Shown: piece by piece, positions 19,743 to 44,405 of the stretch
How the letters are laid out: each line of letters opens with the position of its first letter
Position numbering within the stretch: position 1 is the stretch's first letter
From: Clostridium sp.
GTDB taxonomy: Bacteria > Bacillota > Clostridia > Clostridiales > Clostridiaceae
Assembly: GCF_030532265.1 (NCBI RefSeq)
Contig: NZ_JAUNLM010000013.1
Location: 1 to 48,290 of the forward strand
DNA length: 48,290 nt
Reading direction: 5' to 3'
Notes under the pieces: generated by a model
Databases searched by the model: none
Seen by the model: only the letters and a program-made list of their open reading frames with translations
Told to the model about the DNA's origin: nothing
Position numbers and translations under genes: made by a program

Positions 19743-20723
19743 TTAAAGTGATAAACCTCCTATAATACAAAGGATAATAGTTACTAATGAAAATACAAAT
19801 ACTACTTTCTTTTCTGACCAGCCTAATTGTTCAAAATGATGATGAACTGGAGCCATTTTAAATACTCTTTTACCAGTTGTTTTAAATGAAACTACTTGTA
19901 TTATTACTGATAAAGTTTCGAAAACATATATTCCTCCAACTATTGCAAGAATAATTGGATTCTTTAAAAGTAAAGCTATACTTGCAACAGCACCACCTAA
20001 TGCTAATGACCCAGTATCACCCATAAATATTTTTGCTGGATATTTATTATATTTTAAGAAACCTAAAAGTGCTCCTATTAAAGCTACACAAAATACTGTT
20101 ATTTGATAATTACCTTGTGTATAAGACATTATACTAAAGAATATTAAAACTATAACTGTAACACTTGAAGCTAATCCATCTAAACCATCAGTAAGATTTA
20201 CAGCATTTGTCGCTCCTGCATAATATAAAATTACAAATGGAATATATATTATTCCAAGGTTTAAATCTATTCCTAAGAATGGAATTACTATACTTGTTCC
20301 AAGAACATTATAGCTATAATAAGCCATTGCTATTGAAAATAATAAAAGTAATAACATCTTTTGCCATGCTCTTAATCCTAAGTTATTTTTGTGTATTATC
20401 TTTAACATATCATCTAAAAATCCAATAAACCCAAAAGCTATCATTGAATATAATATTATCATACCTTCATCTGATAATTTATATCTCATAACAAACATTA
20501 CAATTGTAACTGATATTATGAATATAACTCCTCCCATTGTTGGAGTACCAGCTTTTTTAAAATGGCTTTTTGGCCCCTCTTCTCTTATGTTTTGGCCAAA
20601 CTTAAATTTGTGTAGCATTGGTATAAATATTGGTCCTAATACTATTGATATAACAAAACCTAATACTAACGCTAATGCTAATACCATAAATGGACTACTA
20701 AAACTACTTAAAAATTCCCCCAT
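19743..20723 (-). CDS. mraY: Phospho-N-acetylmuramoyl-pentapeptide transferase (lipid I synthesis)
   Basis: MraY transfers phospho-MurNAc-pentapeptide to undecaprenyl phosphate. The 326-residue membrane protein has about ten transmembrane segments and the catalytic motifs [10 protein letters not shown] (about 56-65), [27 protein letters not shown] (about 173-185), [12 protein letters not shown] and [13 protein letters not shown]. The ATG at 20723 is the only plausible start; no ATG, GTG or TTG lies in frame between it and an upstream stop. Its Shine-Dalgarno is 31 bases away, across a hairpin, as described in a separate entry. Confidence 0.97.
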
Positions 20724-20764
20724 CTTTACTACTAAAGAAATCTACTTTAGTAGTTCACCTCCTT
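20724..20764 (-). promoter_or_regulatory. Hairpin-spaced Shine-Dalgarno of mraY
   Basis: In mRNA order: AAGGAGGTGA (20764-20755), a perfect ten-base complement of the 16S 3' end; then ACTACTAAAG, a seven-base loop and CTTTAGTAGT (20754-20728), a perfect 10-bp hairpin; then AAAG and the ATG. Folding the hairpin leaves about seven bases between GGAGG and ATG, the normal spacing. No other start codon lies at the right distance from the Shine-Dalgarno. It begins five bases after the murF stop. Confidence 0.8.
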
Positions 20765-20769
20765 CGTTG

Positions 20770-22128
20770 TTATTTTATATTTTTTAATTCTTCGACTATT
20801 TCTTCGAATTTTTCTCCTCTTGATGCTTTAACTAATACTACATCCCCAGGTTTAATAATTGAATTTAAGTCGTTTATTAAATTTACCTTTGTATTATATA
20901 ATTTTATTTTATCTTTTTCAAAACCTTCTTTGAAATCATCTATATGTTCACCACATGATACAAGTAAATCAACTCTATCTTTTGCATACTCTCCAACTTC
21001 TTTATGACATCTATTAGCTTCATCACCTAATTCTCTCATAGTGCCTAGTATTGCAATTTTTCTTTTTCCTTCTCTATTTTTTAATACATCAAGAGCTGCT
21101 TTCATAGAATCTGGACTAGCATTATAACAATCATTAATTATTTCTATTCCAAATTCATTTTCTATAAATTCTAATCTCATAGATGTAGCCTCTAAATTTT
21201 TAAGACCTTCTTTTATTTCATCTACTGTTAAACCTAATTTATATGATGCAGCAATACCTAGTAAAGCATTTAGAACGTTATGAATACCTACCATTGGTAA
21301 TGTTATTGTATTCATTTCTCCATTATAGTTAAAATCAAAAGATGTTGTTTCTTTATCTAATTTAATATTTTTAGCAAAATAATTACAATTTTGATTATAT
21401 CCAATATTTATTATTTCATACATATTGCTATTAACAGTTTGAAGCATATCATCTTCACTATTTAATATAAGAATATTATTTTTATTAAAGAAATCAGTTA
21501 TTTCCATCTTCGCTTTTAATATATTTTCTCTAGTTTTTAAATTTTCTATATGAGAAACTCCTATATTAGTTATCATAGCAATATCAGGCTTTGCACATTC
21601 GGCAAGATTATGAATTTCATTAAAATTACTCATTCCCATTTCAAGAACAGCAACATCAATTGAACTATCAAGTTCTAATACCATAAGTGGAAGTCCTATT
21701 TCATTATTAAAATTCCCTTTTGTTTTAAAAACTTTATATTTTCCACTTAAAAACGCACTTACCAAATCTTTAGTAGATGTTTTTCCTGTAGACCCTGTTA
21801 TGGCAACTACTTTTATTCCTAACTTTTCTCTATATCCTCTTGCAATGCTTAATAAAGCCTTCTTTGTATCTTTAACTTTAATTACAATACCATTTATTTC
21901 TTCTTCATTATATAAAACTTCATCAACTATAGCTATTGAAGCACCCTTTTCGAAAGCTTCCTTAACATACTTATTTCCATTAAAATTCTCACCTTTTAAT
22001 GCTAAAAATATATTATCTTTTTCAATTTTTCTAGTATCAGTTGATAATTTATTGAATTTTTTATTTTTATTATTTAAAATTATTTCTCCTTCGCTATATT
22101 TTAGTAACTCCTCAAATGTCATTTCCAT
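20770..22128 (-). CDS. murF: UDP-MurNAc-tripeptide-D-alanyl-D-alanine ligase
   Basis: MurF adds D-Ala-D-Ala to UDP-MurNAc-tripeptide. The 452 residues contain the ATP loop AITGSTGKTSTKD (about 108-120), KGNFNNEIGLPLMVL (about 137-151), EMGMSNFNEI and the late NDCYNASPDSMKAAL (about 313-327), which are Mur ligase landmarks specific to MurF. The three usual domains fit the length. AGGGGTG lies before the ATG, 13 bases after murE. Confidence 0.97.
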   Translation of the reverse strand: MEMTFEELLKYSEGEIILNNKNKKFNKLSTDTRKIEKDNIFLALKGENFNGNKYVKEAFEKGASIAIVDEVLYNEEEINGIVIKVKDTKKALLSIARGYREKLGIKVVAITGSTGKTSTKDLVSAFLSGKYKVFKTKGNFNNEIGLPLMVLELDSSIDVAVLEMGMSNFNEIHNLAECAKPDIAMITNIGVSHIENLKTRENILKAKMEITDFFNKNNILILNSEDDMLQTVNSNMYEIINIGYNQNCNYFAKNIKLDKETTSFDFNYNGEMNTITLPMVGIHNVLNALLGIAASYKLGLTVDEIKEGLKNLEATSMRLEFIENEFGIEIINDCYNASPDSMKAALDVLKNREGKRKIAILGTMRELGDEANRCHKEVGEYAKDRVDLLVSCGEHIDDFKEGFEKDKIKLYNTKVNLINDLNSIIKPGDVVLVKASRGEKFEEIVEELKNIK

Positions 22129-27670: not shown

Positions 27671-27767
27671 GGGAATAGATAAGTTCTGGTGTACTTACCG
27701 GTCTTCAACACCGAGTTGTGGCGCTAATACCGTCATAGGTAGGTTCGATTCCTACATATTCCCGCCA
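27671..27767 (+). tRNA. selC: Selenocysteine tRNA (anticodon UCA), with encoded CCA
   Basis: This RNA of about 97 nucleotides carries selenocysteine to in-frame UGA codons through SelA, SelD and SelB. The 5' GGGAATA pairs with TATTCCC before discriminator G and CCA. The D arm is TAAGT/ACTTA. The anticodon loop CTTCAAC gives UCA at 27705-27707. A long variable arm (GTGGCG/CGTCAT with a seven-base loop) is followed by a T arm with TTCGATT. The long acceptor-T stack and long variable arm are typical of bacterial tRNA-Sec. The eighth acceptor pair is G-A rather than Watson-Crick. A tRNA-Ser would need a serine anticodon. Confidence 0.93.
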
Positions 27768-44141: not shown

Positions 44142-44405
44142 AATAAAAAAACCGCCCCTAAAAAGGGACGGAATATCCGCGTTACCACCCTAATTGGTTT
44201 AATAAAATGAACTTTACTAAACCCAACTCGTAAATATAACGGTTTTAACCGCTAACCACTACTTTAATTAAATTTCGCAGTTAGAACTCCAGAGTGAACT
44301 TCAGAATAAAACTTTTAAAATAGCTTACAGTCAACGGCTATTTCTCCCTTAAAAAGTTATTTATACCTACTCTCTCTTTCTTAGTCTTTTAATGTAATTT
44401 TATAC
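44142..44405 (-). promoter_or_regulatory. T-box riboswitch leader of pheST
   Basis: This leader reads uncharged tRNA-Phe. On the minus strand the T-box core AGGGTGGTAACGCGG (44191-44177) is directly followed by the terminator CCGTCCC...GGGGCGG and a U-run (44171-44142). The upstream ~200 bases supply stem I. The likely specifier is TTC (44298-44296) in GAAGTTCACTC. Uncharged tRNA-Phe would pair with the specifier and the T-box bulge and prevent termination. The specifier choice is by eye, not by folding. Confidence 0.93.

Follow-up and report, generated by a model that had tools for sequence, protein, structure and literature searches.

Start-site models commonly take the spacing between the Shine-Dalgarno (SD) sequence and the AUG as a short linear distance. 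Start sites at which a hairpin bridges a longer stretch are, to our knowledge, known mainly from phage T4. According to the summary in PMC3014915, the SD and the AUG of T4 genes 38 and 25 lie 22 and 27 nt apart, and a hairpin bridges these distances to 5 and 11 nt; the arrangement of gene 25 is present in close T-even phages and absent in distant ones, and the experiments on both genes are summarised in the same source.

Here we describe a comparable layout upstream of mraY in a chromosomal window of Clostridium sp. (i.e. the whole stretch of 48,290 nt that was analysed, contig NZ_JAUNLM010000013.1, to which all positions refer unless stated otherwise). The likeness to the two T4 genes consists, at the level of sequence, in a far SD, an intervening hairpin and a spacing that the hairpin would restore. 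The differences are that the Clostridium cases are chromosomal and include three gene families in which almost every genus locus examined has the layout, that the gaps extend up to 216 nt, and that the SD is often extended by UGA to the base of the hairpin. Under our automatic bridging rule, the sequence of T4 gene 25 is called bridged, whereas that of gene 38 is not, its layout being recognised by eye only.

In E. coli thrS, a structure separates an upstream single-stranded part of the ribosome binding site from the SD and is the target of the repressor. This ribosome binding site, named a split one in PMC3936740, is likewise interrupted by structure; the Clostridium hairpin, however, sits between the SD and the AUG. 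In the case of Staphylococcus aureus, PMC13009471 reports ribosomes that use a start-proximal extension of the SD-antiSD duplex. Such an extension also occurs at the sites described here, and the ribosomes are those of a related phylum-level group, whereas the S. aureus sites are linear and the main text of that paper mentions neither a hairpin nor a stem-loop. We found no report of a chromosomal SD-hairpin-AUG layout in a literature that was mainly open-access, most subscription papers lying outside its scope.

The start region of mraY

A preliminary description of the window had placed an SD, a hairpin, the spacer AAAG and an ATG, in that order, directly before mraY, and all four elements are indeed present (Table 1). 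The gap, which had been given as 31 nt linear and about 7 nt folded, measures 31 nt from the end of the SD (AAGGAGGTGA) to the ATG, and the residual of 7 nt is obtained by counting from the GGAGG core, from which the linear distance is 34 nt with 7 nt outside the hairpin. There is no closer SD (best linear SD score 2.4). The claim that no other start competes also held, in that the ATG at 20723 is the sole in-frame start from the upstream stop to the homologous region, upstream in-frame starts being absent because the TAG in the hairpin loop blocks them. A second in-frame ATG, at 20687 (minus strand), lacks a close SD; a protein that started there would be closer in length to MraY from other groups. 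The 16S tail GGCTGGATCACCTCCTTTCT has an exact match in 15 of 67 genus genomes and none in the window's own genome (G000).

Table 1. Features of the mraY start region in the window, and bridged genes elsewhere in the same genome (G000)
Feature	Position	Strand	Basis or remark
murF stop codon TAA	20772-20770	minus	murF = 20770-22128; MurF by NCBIfam
CAACG	between murF stop and SD	minus	sequence
SD AAGGAGGTGA, perfect, 10 nt	20764-20755	minus	complementary to 16S 3' tail of genus relatives
Hairpin, 10 bp, 7-nt loop	20754-20728	minus	perfect pairing
Hairpin 5' arm ACTACTAAAG	20754-20745	minus	sequence and local fold
Hairpin loop TAGATTT, 7 nt	20744-20738	minus	TAG (20744-20742) = in-frame stop upstream of mraY start
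Hairpin 3' arm CTTTAGTAGT	20737-20728	minus	sequence and local fold
Unpaired spacer AAAG, hairpin to start codon	20727-20724	minus	sequence
mraY start codon ATG, then GGGGGA	20723-20721	minus	ORF and homology
mraY CDS, 326 aa	19743-20723	minus	TIGR00445 (NCBIfam)
ireB of G000 (L432)	G000:C58:40081		bridged by rule
spoIIAA of G000 (L491)	G000:C42:21814		bridged
gerW of G000 (L301)			bridged, 4-bp stem

The local fold of 61 nt has an energy of -11.2 kcal/mol (z -2.56) and is equalled by 4 of 200 shuffles; being better than the other 196 is, on its own, modest evidence for the hairpin. Its pairing probability is 0.96 when the coding part is left off and 0.21 in a fold of 111 nt that includes the early coding sequence, in which a rival structure is preferred, and it rises to 0.99 when the SD and the start region are held unpaired, mimicking the ribosome. 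Across the relatives, folded with coding context, the hairpin has a mean probability of 0.83, with values above 0.5 in 51 of 59 genes.

Conservation of the layout in the genus

An mraY-like gene occurs in 67 of the 68 genus genomes searched and an ortholog in 66, with G043 lacking mraY and G050 holding a distant paralog only. Second mraY-like genes (L067-L069) were seen in G031, G033 and G056; they are 52-55% identical and have close SDs by eye. We read the upstream regions of all 66 orthologs and found a far SD in 59, with a hairpin of at least 5 bp in every one of those 59 gaps, although such counts overstate independence because orthologs are related. For the 48 gaps of at most 36 nt, dinucleotide shuffles satisfied the hairpin rule in 4.8 on average and in 11 at most (100 rounds). 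The distance from SD to ATG in the bridged genes varies from 23 to 189 nt; the number of nucleotides outside the hairpin (6-13) and the distance of the AUG beyond it (4-9 nt) each hold in 57 of 59. The gap amounts to 48-189 nt in 11 cases, with base stems in which TTGCCT pairs with AGGCAA, GGGCAA or GGGCGA. A stricter automatic classifier called 56 of the 66 genes bridged, 9 linear and 1 unclassed, the losses being two genes with an SD-like run inside the hairpin and one with a weak stem. The stability of the 48 short hairpins ranges from -3.2 to -14.0 kcal/mol, and no loop or stem sequence is common to all genus mraY hairpins.

Individual loci show further peculiarities. L026 and L037 have very large insertions inside the bridging hairpin (SD core to ATG up to 189 nt), and the hairpin loop of L017 contains AGGGAGG, a second SD-like run at 11 nt from the start.

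Compensatory changes between the two arms had been set in advance as a test across Clostridium species, and they were found. In an alignment made by sequence with MAFFT (A1), which comprises 39 of the 59 bridged genes (i.e. those with short gaps, near-copies omitted) and for which the stem was chosen from folds, 35 cells carry a double change versus 15.6 (sd 2.6) in shuffles, with 0 of 500 shuffles that high. The 7 stem pairs are formed in 81.7% of the cells versus 72.2% after shuffling, and pairing falls to 21-50% when the partner is slid by 1-3 columns. Two of the five covariation measures, namely double-change pairs and further pair types, were not above the shuffles in this alignment (71 and 108 of 500 as high). 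When arms from different species are combined, a stem of at least 6 bp forms in 43% of the pairs versus 96% for native arms, and half-swaps between species shorten the stem from 7.4 to 5.2 bp on average, a contrast that is weak because many species share a stem.

The seven genus genes without the hairpin (L015, L027, L050, L053, L056, L060 and L065) all start 6-9 nt after an SD, so that the search for relatives that lack the hairpin yet keep the long gap, which had been proposed as a way to refute the element, yielded none. In a tree built from 43 of the 66 genes, from which the 23 without a located murF (including the hairpinless L027) were left out, the six remaining hairpinless genes require 4 changes, at least 3 of them by well-supported branches. 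The close SD in all hairpinless genes and the separate changes on the tree therefore imply that hairpin and gap come or go together. The covariation, the joint absence of hairpin and gap and the tree argue that the bridging structure of mraY is kept by selection.

A separate observation concerns codon 2 of mraY (20718-20720 in the window). It is GGG in 58 of the 60 cases of Gly among the 66 genes, whereas GGG makes up 10.4% of the other Gly codons in 30 mraY genes, and the bias occurs with and without the hairpin; it is an unexplained RNA-level signal. The GGGGGA that follows the ATG was dropped as a part of the element, since it is also found in the hairpinless L015, L050 and L053.

Anatomy of the Shine-Dalgarno sequence

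The trinucleotide TGA follows GGAGG directly in 50 of the 59 bridged mraY genes, versus 4 of 160 GGAGG sites at linear spacing in genome G006 (800 kb covered), a set whose spacing peaks at 7 nt. Of the rule-called sites described below, 21 of 29 at ireB and at least 13 of 21 at spoIIAA likewise have TGA after the core. A TGA at this position extends the pairing with the 16S tail, and the hairpin starts 3-4 nt past the SD core in 56 of the 59 mraY genes, i.e. at or beside the point where the extended duplex stops. With the UGA included, the SD duplex would thus end at the base of the hairpin, and the two helices may stack. The mean SD score is 8.56 for bridged genes versus 5.87 for the seven linear ones, a comparison that is biased and only suggestive because for bridged genes the score was maximised over a far longer stretch.

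Distribution outside the genus

In other Clostridiaceae, where the mraY genes represent 39 of the 41 genera sampled, 27 of 53 mraY genes are bridged by rule (9 are unclassed), in 17 of 39 genera, with the call doubtful in four (g23, g25, g38 and g40); outside the genus the rule did not accept gaps of more than 75 nt. Several of the stems in these genera are unrelated (e.g. GCTCT/AGAGC). In the other families of the class, the rule called 21 of 40 mraY genes linear and left 19 unclassed, with no bridged case, and no bridged site was found among 27 ireB loci from other families (out of 53 that gave a match). Ten of 80 named loci were classified, as 4 bridged (Clostridium sp. Ade.TY, C. thermobutyricum, C. 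polyendosporum and C. zeae), 4 linear and 2 unclassed.

Other genes with the layout

We scanned 800 kb of G006 (701 ORFs) and the window (48 ORFs), without a shuffle control, and flagged 10 ORFs with a hairpin in G006 as well as mraY in the window. Four of the 10 (mraY, ynbB, ytfJ and an ORF of 720 aa) were kept, with gaps of 23-32 nt, and the other six were discounted by eye (gaps of at least 89 nt). The 720-aa ORF (L283, position 18653 of G006), with an SD, a 5-bp hairpin and an ATG, is a credible candidate. For one of the ORFs discounted by gap (846 aa, L259, G006 C1:207194), a second SD-like run, AAGGGGGG, may sit closer to a long hairpin before the ATG.

A covariance model built from mraY (R1) was run over 67 genus genomes. 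Its 30 best matches come from 30 genomes and all fall on mraY, which for many of them follows from the way in which the model was built. Among 20 other matches that were fetched, 10 display SD, hairpin and ATG (5 at spoIIAA and 5 at ireB) and 10 do not, and five ytfJ sites are, by position, also among the matches. We assigned the names spoIIAA, ireB and ynbB by recognition; gerW was confirmed by NCBIfam, and the ynbB protein has only below-cut-off matches to methionine gamma-lyase-like models.

The layout is bridged in 45 of 50 spoIIAA loci (50 of 66 matches examined), with 4 linear and one, L494, unclear; the 45 comprise 21 called by rule, 9 read from folds, a further 14 by rule and L510 by eye, and the first 21 include L414, which has a weak outer helix and was later refolded. 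The nine that were read from folds have gaps of 52-216 nt, and very large insertions inside the hairpin were noticed in L410, L424, L428, L429 and L431 (SD core to ATG up to 216 nt). For ireB (UPF0297), 29 of 30 loci are bridged by rule and L450 by eye (30 of 68 matches examined). Two other genes are bridged in part of the genus only: gerW/ytfJ in 18 of 30 loci by a rule that allows 4-bp stems (6 of 15 and 12 of 15), the latter twelve including L298, where a linear SD-like run is present as well, and L305 and L310, which have an alternative TTG; and ynbB in 13 of 30 loci. In L293, L294 and others the 3' arm of the gerW/ytfJ hairpin, GGGAG, is itself SD-like, and these sites may be ambiguous or switchable. 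The window's own genome has four bridged genes, i.e. mraY, ireB, spoIIAA and gerW (Table 1). The predicted layout is not peculiar to mraY, but common to spoIIAA, ireB and others.

Discussion

Comparative sequence evidence makes it very probable, in our view, that the mraY start is a constitutive structure-bridged, i.e. split, ribosome binding site like those of T4 genes 38 and 25. The 30S subunit would pair with the long SD, the hairpin right behind the SD would take the intervening RNA out of the path, and the AUG would thereby be brought within working reach of the P site. Ribosomes would initiate through the hairpin, which would stay folded on the 30S subunit, and the bridge would be constitutive and not a switch. 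The closure of the gap by a hairpin in the manner of T4 gene 38, as put forward in the preliminary description, is strongly supported by the covariation and by relatives in which hairpin and gap are missing together. The switch that went with it did not stand: a dependence of MraY synthesis on temperature, a protein or a helicase finds no support in hairpins that vary so widely in loop, stem and stability.

That the hairpin is in addition a regulatory switch, one that is melted or kept in place by a protein, a small RNA, a helicase or heat and so sets the output of MraY, seems rather unlikely to us. The element does occur on envelope and sporulation genes (mraY and, by NCBIfam, gerW; ireB and spoIIAA by recognition), and the window has an alternative fold with the coding sequence. 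Nevertheless, the hairpin prevails in most relatives with coding context (mean probability 0.83), no loop or stem sequence is common to all, the 48 short hairpins cover the range of stabilities given above, mraY and spoIIAA retain gaps of up to 189 and 216 nt, respectively, and Rfam 15 has no match at the site, neither of its two matches in the window lying at the hairpin and none being obtained on 20500-20950 at E up to 5. A structural spacer fits better than a tuned sensor because stem sequence, loop and stability vary widely. An RNA thermometer was rejected on the grounds that the SD and the AUG lie outside the hairpin and that the stability differs so much between relatives. The two Rfam matches are a selenocysteine tRNA (27671-27763, plus strand) and a T-box leader (44161-44391, minus strand).

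Translational coupling, in which ribosomes that end murF reinitiate at mraY, with a hairpin that is a mere bystander or retains them at the site, would agree with the murF stop codon at 0-20 nt before the GGAGG in the 59 bridged genes. However, spoIIAA and ireB have the same layout, and among 50 of their bridged loci none has a same-strand ORF of at least 70 codons whose end lies 100 nt or less upstream of the SD; as all 50 loci do without such an ORF, coupling is not what unites these sites, and we regard it as quite improbable. An even smaller chance is left for the inverted repeat, which is after all intergenic and within an operon, to act in transcription or RNA decay, be it as a terminator, an attenuator, a protein-binding DNA site or a processing site. 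The one terminator-like site in 20450-21050 lies at 20539-20552 on the other strand and none lies at the hairpin, no sequence is shared between hairpins, and all seven hairpinless genus genes also lack the gap, as an effect on the spacing between SD and AUG predicts. That the SD serves a short leader ORF, from which mraY is reached by reinitiation, is scarcely credible: some ATG, GTG, TTG, CTG or ATT lies 3-13 nt past the core in 56 of the 59 gaps, but an ATG, GTG or TTG at 5-13 nt in 3 of 59 only, and the gap in the window is not among these.

The structure-bridged start site may be taken one step further, to a class of initiation of the Clostridiaceae in which the extended SD-16S duplex would continue unbroken into the hairpin as a composite helix on the 30S platform. 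Such a helix would tolerate inserts of about 200 nt, would be common to a set of envelope and sporulation genes, and would be recognised by a shared factor, or a feature of the ribosome, that allows their joint control; we consider this a speculative and, on balance, doubtful extension.

In the structure-bridged reading, what was a phage curiosity moves into core bacterial genes. The genus appears to keep genes that break the assumption of linear spacing, with gaps that range between roughly 20 and 200 nt and a near-constant folded spacing, and this natural series of gaps provides a ready comparative set for the way in which the ribosome accommodates structure at the mRNA exit side.
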